Assembly: GCA_945903465.1 (NCBI GenBank)
Contig: CAMDOF010000018.1
Span: 1 to 64,000, forward strand
Length of the DNA: 64,000 nucleotides
Reading direction: 5' to 3'
Origin: Opitutus sp. GAS368
GTDB lineage: Bacteria; Verrucomicrobiota; Verrucomicrobiia; Opitutales; Opitutaceae
Below are positions 56,997 through 63,772 of the stretch, one piece after another. The notes beneath the pieces were generated by a model, which saw only the letters and a program-made list of their open reading frames with translations, had not been told where the DNA came from and ran no database searches. Position 1 is the first letter of the stretch. Each line of letters begins with the position of its first letter. A program made the translations under genes and the position numbers.

Positions 56997-58766
56997 TCAG
57001 GTGCGGATTTCGAGGGAGAGATCGACTCGCTCGAATTGGGCGCCGAGCAGCCAGATGCCGCCGGCGACTTCGCCAATGAGGATGGCGAGCACGAAAACGC
57101 TGGCGATGGCGACGGCGGCGGTGAGACCGAGGAGACCTTGCCAAATGAAAATCAACAAGGCCCCGCCGCCCAAGGGTGGCAGGAGGGCGCAGGTCATGGT
57201 GAGTAATTGGGCGAAGAAGAAAATCAGACGTTGGCCGATTACTTCCGGCCCTCCGCCGCGGGTACGACTGGTGTGGAACCAGCTTGGAAAAACGAGAGCG
57301 GCGGCGTTGGGCACGAGGAGCTGGAGGGCGACGAGGGCGGGCGTGATGAGACCGATGGCGATGATGCCGGTGATGCGGAGCGAGAGGGAAATTTCGAGCT
57401 GAGGATGGGCGGTGTTGGGGAGGCTGCAGGCGGCGGTGAGCAGGGCGAGCCAGACGAGGCTGGTGAGTAGAATAATCGGGGTGAGGAGCTCGCCGAGGAT
57501 GATTTGCCAGCCCGAGAGCGGGTATGTCTTCAAGATGTCAGCGTGGGCGAAGTCTTGGCGGATATCTTGGCGGGCGAATTGAGGTCCGATGATCAAGGTG
57601 TAGCCCGCGAAAATCAGCGCGCCAACGCCGATCACGGAGAGCTGTTCTGGGGCGCCGTCCGCGCGGCTGAGCCAAAGACAACCCGCTAAAATGAGGGCCG
57701 CGCTGGCGCCGAAGACGCGGGGTGTAAAGTAGCGCCAAGTGGAGAGGAGGTTTTTCCACAAGAACGCGAATTCGGGTCGGCCGGAGCCTGCCAGGGTGAA
57801 TGGATCGGGCCGGGCTGCGCGGGTGGGGTCGGAGAGAAGAGGTGCTCCGGCCCGCCACGCGGCGTGGCGGGTACCCTGTTTTTGGGCTTGCTCGATGGCG
57901 GTATCGGCGAAGGCCACGGCACTGTTTACGACCCACAGGTAGTGGAGGGTGAGCAGCGCGAGGGCCGCGGGGAGCGACGCGAAAAAGCTGGGGGCATTCT
58001 CGGCGAAAAAGGGGCCCATCAGGCGCTGGACCGGCCATAGTAGCCAGCGGAGGGGCGCGGTCTCGGTGAGGATCAGGGCATTTTGGATGATAGTCGGCCA
58101 GGTGTTTGCTGGAGCGAGGGCGGTGGCGGCCTCGGTGGCGGGCAGGTGGGCGCAGGTGAGGCCGAGGCAGGTGCCGACGGTGATCAGAATCCCGAGACGG
58201 CGCCGCCAGAGACCGAGACCGAGCGCGGCACAGCGGGAGAGAGTGAAGGCCGCACCGCTGAAGTGAAGGTTCAGGGCGGAGAAAATAAACCACCACCCGA
58301 TCGTGTGGGTGAGCGCGTTTCCTCCAATGAATGTCCAGCGCTGGGAAAAGAGCATCATGATACCTGCGCCCAGCAGGCTGCGTAACTGCGCGCTCAGGAG
58401 ACGAAAATGGATGAGGGCCCGCCGTGAGATCGGCGCGGGAAAGAGGAAGGCGATTTCTGCTTCGGTGAAGCCGAGCGTGGCGGGCTCGGTGGGGACGAGC
58501 CAGAGCAAGGCGACGATGGCCAGCAGGGCGAGGCTGCCGATGGCGGCGATCATAGGAACTACGTCAAGCGGTAGGCTGGAGTGGACGGCTTCGAGGAGGG
58601 GCGGCGGGGTCGCGACACCTTGAAAACTCCGGATGAAGAAAAAATAAAAATAGGCACCGCCGACGATGGCTCCAGCGAGGTATTTTGGTTGGCGGAGCCG
58701 TTGCCAGCGAACAGTGAGCCAGTTTTTACCCGACATGAAGCGAAGGTAAAGGAGCGCGCGGAGCAT
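56997..58766 (-). CDS. ABC exporter membrane subunit
   Basis: 589 residues with about twelve to fourteen hydrophobic segments and no ATPase domain. The start MLRALLYLRFMSGKNWLTVR, LGFTEAEIAFLFPAPISRRA and QDIRQDFAHADILKTYPLSG fit the large putative-ABC-exporter permeases (PF16962 type) that partner a separate ATPase. The ATPase gene is just upstream on the same strand (113 bp away), and the zincin is just downstream. Substrate unknown; related systems export peptides or lipids. Confidence 0.85.
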   Translation of the reverse strand: MLRALLYLRFMSGKNWLTVRWQRLRQPKYLAGAIVGGAYFYFFFIRSFQGVATPPPLLEAVHSSLPLDVVPMIAAIGSLALLAIVALLWLVPTEPATLGFTEAEIAFLFPAPISRRALIHFRLLSAQLRSLLGAGIMMLFSQRWTFIGGNALTHTIGWWFIFSALNLHFSGAAFTLSRCAALGLGLWRRRLGILITVGTCLGLTCAHLPATEAATALAPANTWPTIIQNALILTETAPLRWLLWPVQRLMGPFFAENAPSFFASLPAALALLTLHYLWVVNSAVAFADTAIEQAQKQGTRHAAWRAGAPLLSDPTRAARPDPFTLAGSGRPEFAFLWKNLLSTWRYFTPRVFGASAALILAGCLWLSRADGAPEQLSVIGVGALIFAGYTLIIGPQFARQDIRQDFAHADILKTYPLSGWQIILGELLTPIILLTSLVWLALLTAACSLPNTAHPQLEISLSLRITGIIAIGLITPALVALQLLVPNAAALVFPSWFHTSRTRGGGPEVIGQRLIFFFAQLLTMTCALLPPLGGGALLIFIWQGLLGLTAAVAIASVFVLAILIGEVAGGIWLLGAQFERVDLSLEIRT

Positions 58767-58879
58767 AAGGGCGGTGAAGTACGCGGGAAAGGAGCGGTGC
58801 GGGTGCGATCGCGCCTTGAGCGGGAGGCGGGCGGTCGGGGTGAGGGGAAGCGGGCGGTCGGGGTCGCGGGGGCGGCTCC

Positions 58880-59611
58880 TTATTGGGGCGTTTCCTCCGT
58901 GGCGCGGAGGAAGATTTCCTCGAGGTTGACGTGCCGCTCGCCGTGGCTGAAGCGGGCGGCCACGGCGGCGAGGGTGCCGTCGGCGATTTTCTCGCCACGC
59001 TTTAGGATGAGGACGTGGGTGCAGACTTCTTCGAGCAGGTGGAGCAAGTGGGAGCTGAGCACGATGCTGGCGCCCGCTTGGGCACGGCTGATGATCGACT
59101 TTTTCATCCGGCGGATGCCGAGTGGGTCCAAGCCAGTGAGGGGTTCGTCAAAAAACAAGACGCGCGGGCCGTGGAGCAGGCCGCAGGCGATCGCGAGTTT
59201 TTGTTTCATTCCGCGCGAGAGTTCACCCGGTAGGCGGTCGGCGTGGGTGGCGATTTCGAATTCCTCGAGCAGGGGCTGGGCGATGGCCTCGTGGTGGCGC
59301 ACGCCGTAAACTCGGGCGACAAAACTGAGGTGTTGGCGGACGGTGAGGTAGTCGAAGAGCCGGGGCTCGTCGGGGAAGAAGGCGAGGGTACGTTTGGCGG
59401 CGATCGCCTCCGTGGCGAGGTCGTAGCCAGCGATGCGGAGGGTGCCGCTGCTGGGGGGAATGATCCCGGCGAGGCAACGCAAGGTCGTGGTCTTACCCGC
59501 GCCATTGGGCCCGACGAGGCCGAGGACTTCCCCCGGACCGACCTGAAACGATAACGTGCGGACAGCCGTGAATGTTCCGTAGTGTTTAGACAGGGCGTTG
59601 ACCTCGATCAT
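58880..59611 (-). CDS. ABC transporter ATP-binding protein
   Basis: 243 residues: MIEVNALSKHYGTFTAVRTL, Walker A GLVGPNGAGKTT, signature LSRGMKQKLAIACGLL, Walker B RVLFFDEPLTGLDPLG, and H-loop LSSHLLHLLEEV. It resembles the CcmA-type ATPases of export systems. It is the first gene of the presumed operon with the permease and zincin. All catalytic motifs are intact. Confidence 0.93.
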   Translation of the reverse strand: MIEVNALSKHYGTFTAVRTLSFQVGPGEVLGLVGPNGAGKTTTLRCLAGIIPPSSGTLRIAGYDLATEAIAAKRTLAFFPDEPRLFDYLTVRQHLSFVARVYGVRHHEAIAQPLLEEFEIATHADRLPGELSRGMKQKLAIACGLLHGPRVLFFDEPLTGLDPLGIRRMKKSIISRAQAGASIVLSSHLLHLLEEVCTHVLILKRGEKIADGTLAAVAARFSHGERHVNLEEIFLRATEETPQ

Positions 59612-60190: not shown

Positions 60191-60348
60191 GTCTAAAATT
60201 GGGTTTGGAGCGCGCTCCGGCTGCCTGGCCGGCCGCCCCGTCGACCGCCTCGTACCCCCACGGTGGGCTCGTGCGGTGGGGCTCGTGCAAAGTGCGCGGC
60301 TGATTGGTTTGGTTTCGACTCGCGGCGGCGTCGGGGCACTTTCCGCGT

Positions 60349-61662
60349 ATGGTTGAGAAAAAACGTGTTATCGTCGTGGGAGGCGGCGCCGCCGGTATTT
60401 TTGCGGCGATTGCTTGTGCAGAAAAACTGGGCGCAGGCGGTGAGGTAACGGTCTACGAGGCGACGGCCCATCCTTTGGCGAAGGTGCGGGTCTCGGGGGG
60501 CGGGCGCTGCAATGTCACGCATGCGTGTTTCGAACCCCGCGAGTTGGTGAAGCGTTATCCGCGGGGCGGGCGGGAATTGCTCGGAGCGCTGTATCGTTGG
60601 GGTCCGCGGGAGACGGTGGCGTGGTTCGCCGAACGGGGTGTCGAGACCAAGGTAGAGGCGGATGGCCGGATGTTTCCGGTGACGGATGATTCTGCGACGA
60701 TTGTTGATTGTTTGGTGCGAGCGGCGGAGGCGGCTGGCGTAAAAATCGTCACCTGCATGGGTGTGCGCAAGGTCGAGGAATTGCCCCAGGCGGCTGGGCT
60801 CGACCGCCTGGAAACACGGGCGGAGGGCACCGGATCATCTGCCCGCCGCGAGAGCGCGACCAAGTCCGGCACCACGTTTTGGGTGACGCTGACGGATGGC
60901 ACCGGGGTGCGTTGTGAGCGGATTTTATTCGCGACGGGAGGCAATCGCTCGTCGGTGGGTTTTACGATCGCCGAGTCTTTGGGGCATACGATTGAGCCGC
61001 TGGTGCCGTCTTTGTTTACCTTTCATATTGATGACGCCCGCTTGGTGGGTTTGTCGGGGGTCTCGATGGAGAATGCGGGGGTGAGTGTCGCCGGCACGAA
61101 GCTGCGCGAGAGCGGGCCGTTGCTTGTTACCCACTGGGGGCTCAGCGGGCCAGCGGTTTTAAAACTCTCGGCATGGGGTGCGCGGGAGCTCTCCGCCAGA
61201 AACTACGAGTTTCCCTTGGTGGTCAATTTTGCGCTGCCGCACACGCGGGAATCTCTCGGCCGCGAGCTCATGACGGTGCGGGAAAAAAATCTGCGCAAAC
61301 AGATTGGGACCTGGAGCCCGCTGGCGATGCCGCAGCGTCTCTGGGAACGCCTCGTCGGCTCGGCGGGGATCTTGCCGACGACCCCGTGGGCGCAGGTGAG
61401 CAACGCGGCGCTTGTTCCGCTCGCGGCGCAGTTGACCGGAGCGGAGCTCGCGGTGGTGGGTAAGAGTCTCTTTAAGGAAGAGTTTGTTACCTGCGGCGGG
61501 GTGAGGCTCAGCGAGGTCGATTTTCGCACGATGGAAAGTCGGTCGACCCCCGGTCTCTACTTTGCAGGCGAAGTCCTGGACATCGACGGCGTGACCGGTG
61601 GATTTAATTTTCAATCGGCTTGGACGACCGGCTGGCTGGCAGGCCAGGCGATGGCGGAGTGA
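60349..61662 (+). CDS. HI0933/YhiN family FAD-dependent oxidoreductase
   Basis: 437 residues. Dinucleotide-binding fold at the start (VIVVGGGAAGIFAAIACAEK), then RVSGGGRCNVTHACF and AERGVETKVEADGRMFPVTD, the signature segments of the HI0933 family. LFATGGNRSSVG and, at the end, LYFAGEVLDIDGVTGGFNFQ complete the FAD site. The function of this widespread flavoprotein is unclear. ATG 60349 is chosen; the open frame begins at 60304, but those 15 codons do not fit the family start. Confidence 0.9.
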   Translation: MVEKKRVIVVGGGAAGIFAAIACAEKLGAGGEVTVYEATAHPLAKVRVSGGGRCNVTHACFEPRELVKRYPRGGRELLGALYRWGPRETVAWFAERGVETKVEADGRMFPVTDDSATIVDCLVRAAEAAGVKIVTCMGVRKVEELPQAAGLDRLETRAEGTGSSARRESATKSGTTFWVTLTDGTGVRCERILFATGGNRSSVGFTIAESLGHTIEPLVPSLFTFHIDDARLVGLSGVSMENAGVSVAGTKLRESGPLLVTHWGLSGPAVLKLSAWGARELSARNYEFPLVVNFALPHTRESLGRELMTVREKNLRKQIGTWSPLAMPQRLWERLVGSAGILPTTPWAQVSNAALVPLAAQLTGAELAVVGKSLFKEEFVTCGGVRLSEVDFRTMESRSTPGLYFAGEVLDIDGVTGGFNFQSAWTTGWLAGQAMAE

Positions 61663-61714: not shown

Positions 61715-63772
61715 TTAATCCAGATGATTGCGGCGACGATCGAGGCGGTAGAGGGGGGCCTCCTCCATCAGTTTAGCCGTGCGCAGATTGCCCAGGAATT
61801 CGAAGCTGACGGCCGAGAGATCTTCCGCGCTGCAGAGTGCGGCGAATTCCTGCGTGGCGTAGACTTGGCCAGGTGGAGTGATGGGCTCGATTCGGGCGGC
61901 TCGGCTGAGATGCAGACCGGTGCAGGCGGTGCGCTGGAGTACGGGGTCGATGTAGGCGTAGACGGGCCCGGCGTGAAGCACGATGCGGATACCGAGGTCG
62001 GCCGGCAGTCCGCGTTCCGCCCAAGGCGTCTGGCTAATTTCATCGCGTAATTCGAGGGCGAAAAGAGCGGCGTCTTGCAGGCGCTCGTAAATAAACGATT
62101 GGGATTTGCCCCAGCTCTCTGCGACGATGGGTGGTAGATTCTTTTGCGTGAGAATTCGCGCGACGGAGCCTTTAAATTCGCGAATAAAGGCGGGCATCTG
62201 GCGTTCGCCGATTTTCCGGTGATTAATAATTTCGGCGAAGACGAGCGCCTTGATCGTGTGCTCGATCTCAAGTGGGACGGGCACCGCGTTCGGGCCGGCG
62301 GGCGGGGGCGCCGCGGCTGGGGGCTGAGCGGCGAGTGGCGCCGTCAGCGAAGGGGTGGTTCGAAGGATGCTGGGTGTTTGGACGGACGACGGCCCACCGA
62401 GAGGGGCGAGGGGGATCGGTACGATGATGCGGGGATTGAGCTGCCGTTCCTGCCACTCGCCGACGACGCCGCCGGTGCCGCCGTTGTTTTCAATGGGCGC
62501 GCCGTCCCAGACTGCGAGGGCTTTGAGCTCGAAGTCGAGGGCCTGAGCTTGCAGTACGGCGAGCCCGGTGATGATGCGGTTTGCGTAAATAAATTCCATG
62601 GTGGGGGAGGGATCATGGTCTGAGCCCGAGTAGTCGGCCGGGCTCGCGATCAGCGTCGTGTGCGCCTGGGAGAGGACCTTGAGGAAACGTTGCTCCCAAG
62701 CGGGACCGGCCCAGCTGACGCTTTGGCGTTTGAACGCGTTGATGGGGCAGGGGAGCACGAGGTTCACCTTGGCGTCCATTTCGAGCAGACACTCACAGAA
62801 AATGAGATCGGCCCCACAGGCCGCCGAGCCGTAGCCGAAACCGGCGCGAACCTCGTGCAGATACGCTTTAATCTCAGCGCGCACTCGCGCCTCTGCGGCC
62901 GCGGGGAAACGCCGGGTCGGGCGGTCGGCGCGATCCATCATGTGGCCGGAAAATACGACGACACTGGGGAACTCAAAGCAGGCGTCGAGCCAGGCCTGCC
63001 CCCGCTCGGCGCGCCCCGTGATTTCTCGGGCGCGTTGTTTAATGGAAGCGAGATCGTACCAGTGGTCGCGCGTCGTTTCCTGCCGCTTGGTGGCAAAGCC
63101 GATGATCTCACGGGCTTGCTTGCGCATGGAGGCGAGATCTCGCCAACGGCCGGCAAACTGCGTGGCCGCCCGCCGGTAGTATTTCGCCGCCGCGGTCGTG
63201 GCCCCCAAGTGCGTGTGCGCTTCCGCCATCGTCGCGAGCACCCACCCATCGGCTTGGTCCCCCGCCTGTTCGATCTCGCGACGACAGGTCTTTTCCACTT
63301 GTCCGGCGATATCCTGAGCTTCTTTTAACTGGCCCGAGGCGGCGAGCGTGAAGGCCAGGTTGATTCCGGGATAGTAGGCGGAATTAATCGTAAAAGCCTC
63401 GCGGTAAAACCGGCATGATTGCTCGATCGCGGCCGCGCCGCTCGCCGCGCACGTGCTGCGCCGCCACATCTCTTTAAAGACGCGTCCCTTCAGGCAAAGC
63501 GTCTCTTCGTCGCGGTCTGACTCTTCGAGGAGCTCGCGCAAGATCTCCCGCGCTCCGTCCAGTGCCCCCGTCTGTGCCAGCGCGAGCGCGAGCTGCTGCT
63601 GCAAAATACGATTTTTCCCGTAGCGCTTGATGCCGTCGCGCGCCACCTCGATGGCGGTAAGAAGTTGACCGGCAGACGCTGACTTCCGCGCGGTCTGCTC
63701 ATATTCGCGGATATCGTGCGACAGGGGCGACTGCGTTTTGCCGGCTTCTTCAGAGTTTTCGTAAAAAATCAC
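61715..63772 (-). CDS. TPR / SLOG-like / degenerate class III cyclase protein
   Basis: 685 residues in three parts. Residues about 20-265 are helical TPR-like repeats of the TRAFs-binding type (AFTINSAYYPGINLAFTLAA). Residues about 270-440 look like a SLOG/Rossmann nucleotide-sensing domain: VVVFSGHMMDRAD, GFGYGSAACGADLIFCECLL, VNLVLPCPINAFKRQSV and YANRIITGLAVLQAQALDFE. A Pro/Ala linker leads to residues about 505-680, a class III nucleotide-cyclase homology domain: IRIVLHAGPVYAYIDPVL, SRAARIEPITPPGQVYAT. Where active cyclases have two metal-binding Asp, this protein has VFAEIINH (Glu514) and SWGKSQSF (Lys556), so catalysis is doubtful. No membrane segment. Probably a cytoplasmic nucleotide-signal receptor or regulator; partners unknown. 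Confidence 0.78.
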   Translation of the reverse strand: MIFYENSEEAGKTQSPLSHDIREYEQTARKSASAGQLLTAIEVARDGIKRYGKNRILQQQLALALAQTGALDGAREILRELLEESDRDEETLCLKGRVFKEMWRRSTCAASGAAAIEQSCRFYREAFTINSAYYPGINLAFTLAASGQLKEAQDIAGQVEKTCRREIEQAGDQADGWVLATMAEAHTHLGATTAAAKYYRRAATQFAGRWRDLASMRKQAREIIGFATKRQETTRDHWYDLASIKQRAREITGRAERGQAWLDACFEFPSVVVFSGHMMDRADRPTRRFPAAAEARVRAEIKAYLHEVRAGFGYGSAACGADLIFCECLLEMDAKVNLVLPCPINAFKRQSVSWAGPAWEQRFLKVLSQAHTTLIASPADYSGSDHDPSPTMEFIYANRIITGLAVLQAQALDFELKALAVWDGAPIENNGGTGGVVGEWQERQLNPRIIVPIPLAPLGGPSSVQTPSILRTTPSLTAPLAAQPPAAAPPPAGPNAVPVPLEIEHTIKALVFAEIINHRKIGERQMPAFIREFKGSVARILTQKNLPPIVAESWGKSQSFIYERLQDAALFALELRDEISQTPWAERGLPADLGIRIVLHAGPVYAYIDPVLQRTACTGLHLSRAARIEPITPPGQVYATQEFAALCSAEDLSAVSFEFLGNLRTAKLMEEAPLYRLDRRRNHLD

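Follow-up and report, generated by a model that had tools for sequence, protein, structure and literature searches.

A catalytically degenerate cyclase domain retained in a TPR-S and SLOG protein of Opitutus sp. GAS368, from a Verrucomicrobiota clade of an often TIR-linked family

The window, i.e., the whole stretch of 64,000 nucleotides of Opitutus sp. GAS368 that was analysed, harbors a gene encoding a 685-residue protein in which TPR-S repeats, a SLOG domain and a class III cyclase-like domain are joined. The comparison with its relatives suggests, with a probability that we place on the favorable side of even, that the protein belongs to a catalytically dead but selectively kept offshoot of a TIR-linked family, and that it is likely a ligand-binding receptor or regulator acting through its SLOG domain, with the pseudocyclase as a scaffold. 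The gene, the parts of its product and the nearest genes are as follows.

61715..63772, minus strand: TPR-S/SLOG/pseudocyclase gene, 685 amino acids, GTG start, stop codon included
63020..63712, minus strand: alpha-helical TPR region, residues 21-251 (Pfam; helices in the AlphaFold2 model)
63347-63628, minus strand: Pfam TPR-S match, residues 49-142
62405..63001, minus strand: SLOG domain, residues 258-456 (AlphaFold2, Foldseek matches to YpsA and DprA, alignments)
62264..62404, minus strand: Pro/Ala-rich linker, residues 457-503, fast evolving, with pLDDT below 50 at residues 461-483
61730..62263, minus strand: class III cyclase-like domain, residues 504-681, apparently catalytically degenerate (AlphaFold2, Foldseek, alignments)
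62231..62233, minus strand: Glu514, at the position of the first metal Asp (Asp1; alignment)
62117..62119, minus strand: Glu552, at the base-recognition position (alignment)
62105..62107, minus strand: Lys556, at the position of the second metal Asp (Asp2; alignment)
61892..61906, minus strand: SRAAR, residues 623-627, with Arg627 at the transition-state Arg position and Ser623 at the Asn position
60304-61662: HI0933-like flavoprotein gene, convergent with the 685-residue gene and 52 bp from it
56997-59611: ABC exporter pair, further on, beyond the flavoprotein gene

Two homologs (L005 and L006) align from the identical first residue of the protein, and inspection by eye of the region upstream of the gene disclosed no clear Shine-Dalgarno sequence. 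The repeat region is matched by the Pfam families TPR-S (PF20308; 73 bits, gathering cut-off 27.6) and MAP3K_TRAF_bd (46.3 bits, cut-off 24.1), so that the TRAFs-binding-type repeats proposed by the first-pass annotation are confirmed; TPR-S is also found at E ≤ 0.01 in all 12 members of alignment A1. No Pfam SIR2 match exists in the protein.

The middle domain is predicted to have a Rossmannoid SLOG fold. Its AlphaFold2 model (residues 258-456, built on a 65-row alignment) reached a pLDDT of 92.4 and a pTM of 0.90, and the best Foldseek match in the PDB was Bacillus subtilis YpsA (2nx2; E 1e-7, TMq 0.60, 17% identity), followed by DprA structures; identities to these best matches are 14-17%, and DprA-like and YpsA-related entries were also matched in the BFVD viral set. 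The SLOG-like nature ascribed to this region from the sequence is thus upheld, and no match to a non-SLOG fold turned up. At E ≤ 1 Pfam gave no family for residues 258-456, nor for the middle domains of the homologs L069 and L107. In the 65-row alignment A4, G276, A318, G320, D322, P341, W359, G403 and W440 are invariant. The LOG motif, PGGxGTxxE, is incomplete in the window protein, where the alignment places GGT at 431-433 without the following Glu.

Residues 504-681 are predicted to fold as a class III cyclase homology domain. The full-length AlphaFold2 model (pLDDT 87.9, pTM 0.86) retrieved 1642 PDB matches at E ≤ 10, the best 50 of which are all class III cyclases, including 3r5g, 5oyh and 1wc0; among these 50 there is also Ma1120 with KDA changed to EGY, "in complex with GT...". 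Guanylate_cyc is absent among the Pfam families listed at E ≤ 10 for the window protein, and a scan of the genome with PF00211 matched three other places, all of them on other contigs, the window gene not being among them.

The alignment to intact relatives places Glu514 at the first metal Asp and Lys556 at the second: the intact relatives read FADVVNF and NTWGD where the window protein reads FAEIINH and ESWGK, and outside the clade described below FADVVGFS...NTWGD, or a near variant, corresponds to FAEIINHR...ESWGK in the window. At both sites, the three residues on either side are free of Asp. Hence, the loss of both metal Asp residues, already proposed from the sequence, holds, as does the retention of SRAAR (623-627) and PPGQVYA (634-640). 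The transition-state Asn position is occupied by Ser623, as it is by Ser in 17 of the 59 intact rows. Taken at the level of sequence, the replacements of the two metal Asp residues suggest that the cyclase domain of the window protein is probably catalytically dead.

The protein is not a chance find: relatives were found in 14 of 57 genomes at E ≤ 0.001 (the own genome included; two matches are partial and near the limit). A scan of a genome collection confirmed 133 relatives, the best 80 of which were retained as loci. The three-domain architecture recurs in 73 of these 80 loci, across 13 phyla, in agreement with the earlier suggestion that it is conserved as a family. The intact relatives from Tolypothrix (L069), Nostoc (L090) and a marine member of Opitutia (L060) align end to end with the window protein at 33-34% identity, with the three domains in the same order; unlike the window protein, they keep both metal Asp residues, have Asn at the position of residue 552 and adjoin a TIR gene.

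The distribution of the two Asp residues was followed in a 74-row alignment comprising the 73 near full-length loci and the window. Outside one Verrucomicrobiota clade, both are retained in 50 of 52 rows; the two exceptions, L095 and L102, seem to represent additional, independent degenerations. Within the clade (22 rows, the window included) Asp2 is lost in all 22 and Asp1 in 21, L042 retaining it. Since 59 of the 81 rows compared retain both Asp, the dead cyclase is a mark of the clade of the window and not of the family as a whole. A quick IQ-TREE phylogeny, built with SH-aLRT support only on the TPR-S and SLOG columns of 71 rows (L095, L101 and L102 left out), joins the 22 rows lacking one or both Asp in a single clade with an SH-aLRT value of 100, and one change is enough to explain the intact/lost label; the exact sister group of the clade is unsure because of its long stem (1.21) and a long-branch warning elsewhere in the tree.

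The same picture is disclosed within the bacterial family of the window, where 149 of 252 genomes contain some match and at least 31 matches are near full-length, although many of these genomes coincide with the L032-L052 records and the counts overlap. Among the 31 listed near full-length matches, 22 (the window included) score at least 727 bits, all of them lacking one or both Asp, and the remaining nine are intact. No genome harbors both a dead and an intact member among these 31, with up to five candidates scored per genome.

The replacements in the clade are not equally variable. Glu occupies position 514 in 21 of 22 rows (Asp in 59 of 59 intact rows, which were selected by that Asp) and position 552 in equally many (the intact rows have Asn here in 55 of 59). 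Guanylyl cyclases carry Glu at the position equivalent to 552, for guanine recognition, and in three other cyclases of the same genome (L001-L003; DKFIGD, DKYIGD) this position is Lys. Position 556 is occupied by Lys in eight rows, Gly in eight, Arg in three, Pro in two and Ala in one. Arg627 is kept in 13 of 22 rows (59 of 59 in the intact ones). Of the 24 SLOG columns chosen for their conservation, 23 do not vary at all among the 22 clade members, and position 432 differs in a single one.

The dead domain is under purifying selection in the subclade of the window. Nei-Gojobori dN/dS values of the cyclase domain are 0.10 against L048 and 0.09 against L045, those of TPR-S being 0.14 and 0.12, of SLOG 0.22 and 0.14, and of the linker 0.84 and 0.43; the ratios are rough, as synonymous change is high (pS 0.51-0.69 across the three domains) and dS approaches saturation in several pairs. 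The identity to L048 is likewise highest in the cyclase domain (78%, versus 75% in SLOG and 72% in TPR-S). These data bear on the possibility that the cyclase domain is a decaying, functionless remnant, i.e., an appendix for folding or solubility, and that only TPR-S and SLOG matter. Such a fate would account for the variability of the former active-site columns 512, 556, 627 and 629 within the clade, with Arg627 gone in L050-L052, L041 and L047, and for the fact that at larger distances (the 0.5-0.6 bin) the identity of the cyclase domain lags behind that of SLOG in the clade (0.485 vs. 0.554), unlike in intact members (0.569 vs. 0.532). Within the window's subclade, however, neither TPR-S nor SLOG is as well conserved as the cyclase domain, the family model is matched through its C-terminal end in all 21 clade loci, and the two Glu residues are each fixed as described above; mere decay is thus an unlikely explanation, in our view. 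A receptor in which the scaffold is kept is preferred.

In order to survey the gene neighborhoods, local HMMs for TIR, DUF4062, STAND and NACHT, seeded from neighbors in the same loci, were run on all the open frames of the loci, leaving seven partial-match loci (L087, L094, L097, L104, L108, L109 and L111) out of the linkage counts. A TIR, DUF4062 or STAND match lies within 500 bp of 38 of the 59 intact members (TIR alone in 34), 21 being without one, and a same-strand match within 150 bp is present in 27 of 59. In the dead clade, the corresponding number within 500 bp is 1 of 22 (L048), and among all members without both Asp it is 2 of 24 (L048 and L095). Extending the distance to 5 kb gives 44 of 59 intact members versus 3 of 24 without both Asp. 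The linkage is therefore concentrated at short distance, only six more intact members being added out to 5 kb, which points to operons. This linkage, which could not be read from the sequence by the first-pass annotation, is the main evidence for a putative role of the family in signalling or conflict.

Counting by lineage tempers the contrast. When identity clusters were scored as linked if at least half of their members were, the 60% clusters gave 13 of 28 intact versus 1 of 3 others, with the clade cluster unlinked (Fisher p = 1.0), and p was again 1.0 with 50% clusters; with 70% clusters the numbers were 16 of 33 versus 1 of 13 (p = 0.016). The tie between the death of the cyclase and the loss of a TIR-type neighbor thus rests on one clade and is weak by lineage. 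Moreover, the dead clade is not entirely devoid of adjoining TIR genes: in L048, the closest relative of the window protein, a TIR-TPR gene lies 117 bp downstream, and in L045 another lies 1.6 kb upstream of the dead-clade gene. L045 (3194-8445) contains two tandem TIR proteins, the first combining matches to TIR, Guanylate_cyc and TPR in a single polypeptide. In L095 (9923-13939), a separate degenerate cyclase without Asp at either site is located 10 bp from a DUF4062 gene, so that here catalysis would have been lost without loss of the effector neighbor.

As for the neighbors themselves, Pfam found TIR_2 in 16 of the 51 hand-picked for loci outside the dead clade, and confirmed it singly in those of L060, L062, L103, L048 and L045; for the neighbors of L069 and L093, WD40 models fill the Pfam matches listed and the TIR call rests on the local HMM. 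The partner architectures include TIR-FGE (L060), TIR with WD40 (L069 and L093) and DUF4062-NACHT-TPR (L057). Of the nine intact loci from the window's bacterial family, five carry a TIR gene in divergent orientation at 500 bp or less; one more, L159, has both TIR and STAND at no more than 2 kb. For 65 neighbors of dead-clade members, no TIR appears among the 25 of 73 Pfam families listed, but the set includes the L045 TIR protein, so that at least one lies outside those 25. In L101 (2794-3453), a Crp-type regulator (Pfam cNMP_binding) faces an intact member of the family convergently at a distance of about 29 bp, and would fit a cyclic mononucleotide product.

The surroundings of the window gene are different. 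Next to the flavoprotein and exporter genes listed above, a Mem_trans (AEC-type) transporter gene is divergent from the gene, just outside the window. In 8 of 22 clade loci, HI0933 or AEC lies no more than 2 kb away; neither was found next to an intact member. The flavoprotein together with the exporter pair occurs within 6 kb in 7 of 22 clade loci, the window counted. The gene thus keeps a constant chromosomal location in that part of the clade to which the window belongs, the other clade members having other neighbors. Near the window gene (locus L115; 5 kb scanned to one side and 4.7 kb to the other) there is no TIR, DUF4062 or STAND match, and a local defence island was rejected, the neighbors being a flavoprotein and transporters.

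A TIR partner acting in trans was sought in the same genome, which contains 10 TIR matches, all of them on contigs other than that of the window. Eight of the ten were compared, and they are similar, in whole or in part, to the TIR-TPR genes of L045 and L048; with the TIR-FGE partner of the L060 type as query, only a 60-residue TIR match was obtained. Outside the window, the same genome encodes a 519-residue SLOG-SLATT protein (L116, 2185-3741), which is matched in its N-terminal part by the SLOG segment of the family model and whose Pfam SLATT_1 and SLATT_3 matches are barely above the cut-offs. Two related TIR proteins of about 485 residues (L123, 457-3354, and L124, 472-1920) have an N-terminal half that appears SIR2-like by eye, and in L123 a STAND-like gene follows the TIR gene; both are possible defence modules of this genome. 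A mobile or phage origin was also considered and rejected: in a tblastn search with the intact Tolypothrix homolog, phage records gave no match at E 1e-10, and the one plasmid record obtained at an E limit of 1e-20 covered 18% of the query.

With PADLOC, the best match of the window protein had an E value of 0.012 and no family was matched at 1e-5; at the latter threshold, 1 of 65 family members was matched, by the PycC model (2.4e-8). The neighbors gave mostly single kinase-type matches in both groups, to which are added HEAT-ARM_XIII for 4 of the 51 neighbors from outside the clade and mad3 for 4 of the 65 dead-clade neighbors; among the matches listed, nothing is distinctive in either group.

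Some known systems share part of this organization. In Thoeris, the SLOG domain of ThsA senses a cADPR isomer made by a TIR protein (PMC10022894, PMC9503650), and the SLOG domain of the present family is likewise often encoded with TIR. Unlike ThsA (SIR2-SLOG), the window protein lacks SIR2 and has TPR-S and a cyclase domain in addition; its SLOG has YpsA and DprA as the closest of the PDB matches listed, from which it differs in being embedded in a three-domain protein; and no TIR gene lies near it, where ThsA has ThsB (TIR). The intact family resembles Pycsar (PycC and PycTIR) in having a class III cyclase beside a TIR gene. PycTIR has a cyclic-nucleotide-binding domain (PMC11224242), and no such domain is present among the Pfam matches listed for seven TIR neighbors scanned singly; compared with Pycsar, the window cyclase lacks the catalytic Asp residues, an adjoining effector gene and a PADLOC PycC match. 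Dead class III cyclases in a conflict-type setting are known from the vWA-MoxR ternary systems, in which, according to PMC7159879, they are contained in vWA effectors; that of the window is fused to TPR-S and SLOG instead.

By their TIR, DUF4062 and STAND neighbors, the intact proteins would commonly belong to conflict-type (immune or cell-death) modules. We infer the order of events, the ligand, the dimerisation, the loss of activity and any phage-defence role in the following scheme. In intact members, TPR-S would receive a protein or stress input; SLOG might then, by analogy with ThsA, bind a nucleotide-derived ligand, for which a TIR product made from NAD+, as in Thoeris, would be the natural candidate; and the dimeric cyclase would then make a cyclic nucleotide. 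In the dead clade, cyclase turnover would be gone, with SLOG and the cyclase scaffold retained, and the protein would most likely pass on the occupancy of SLOG as a receptor or regulator, the pseudocyclase serving as a dimerisation module that possibly binds a nucleotide. The binding of a nucleotide signal by the window protein is consistent with the conservation of SLOG and with the TIR linkage of the intact family.

An extension of this scheme supposes that in the dead clade a TIR-linked maker of second messengers became a receptor with two pockets. SLOG would read an NAD+ derivative produced by TIR, and the cyclase site, now with Glu514 in place of Asp1 and Glu552 in place of Asn, would read a purine nucleotide although the two-metal site is gone. 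If true, one dimeric protein would integrate two nucleotide signals away from the TIR operon of origin; a kept nucleotide pocket is weakened by the variation of columns 512, 627 and 629 in the clade, and we regard this as an unlikely, speculative elaboration.

Class III cyclases function as dimers whose sites are shared between the subunits, and the window protein might therefore be a dominant-negative or decoy subunit, switching off an active class III cyclase of its own cell by forming a heterodimer with it. The three PF00211 matches in the genome would offer partners of this kind, and Kaur et al. name nucleotide binding and dominant-negative action as the two options for inactive cyclases in conflict systems (PMC7159879). 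Nevertheless, the natural partner is missing, since dead and intact members were not found together in any genome among the 31 matches listed, and the genome's other cyclases differ markedly in architecture from the window protein; a decoy role is accordingly doubtful, and quite improbable. That the domain has remained an enzyme but with a changed chemistry, in which Glu514 and Glu552 hold a metal or act as general base on another substrate, would suit the fixation of these two acidic residues and the partial retention of Arg627, but it is very improbable, because Asp2 is replaced by Lys or Arg in 11 of 22 rows and by Gly, Pro or Ala in the other 11, leaving no common second metal ligand, and the Asn position varies as well.

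In the literature searched, no description was found of the three-domain family or of the module formed by TIR, SLOG and cyclase, nor anything on TPR-S with SLOG, on the TRAFs-binding domain with a cyclase, or on TPR-S with tetratricopeptide and TIR, and an earlier description in comparative surveys is possible. What is new is the family context and the dead clade, dead cyclases in conflict systems being already precedented.

Together, the proteins of the family form a natural series, with intact, often TIR-coupled proteins in 13 phyla and one clade in which catalytic residues have been lost and SLOG and the scaffold retained, so that the division of labour between SLOG and cyclase becomes testable by comparing intact and dead members. 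The module of TIR, SLOG and cyclase is barely touched by the present PADLOC models. Finally, components of the animal ASK signalosome are held, according to PMC8195603, to derive from bacterial conflict systems; given this proposed origin and the MAP3K TRAF-binding match in the repeat region, the function of these bacterial proteins would bear on the origin of the ASK signalosome.
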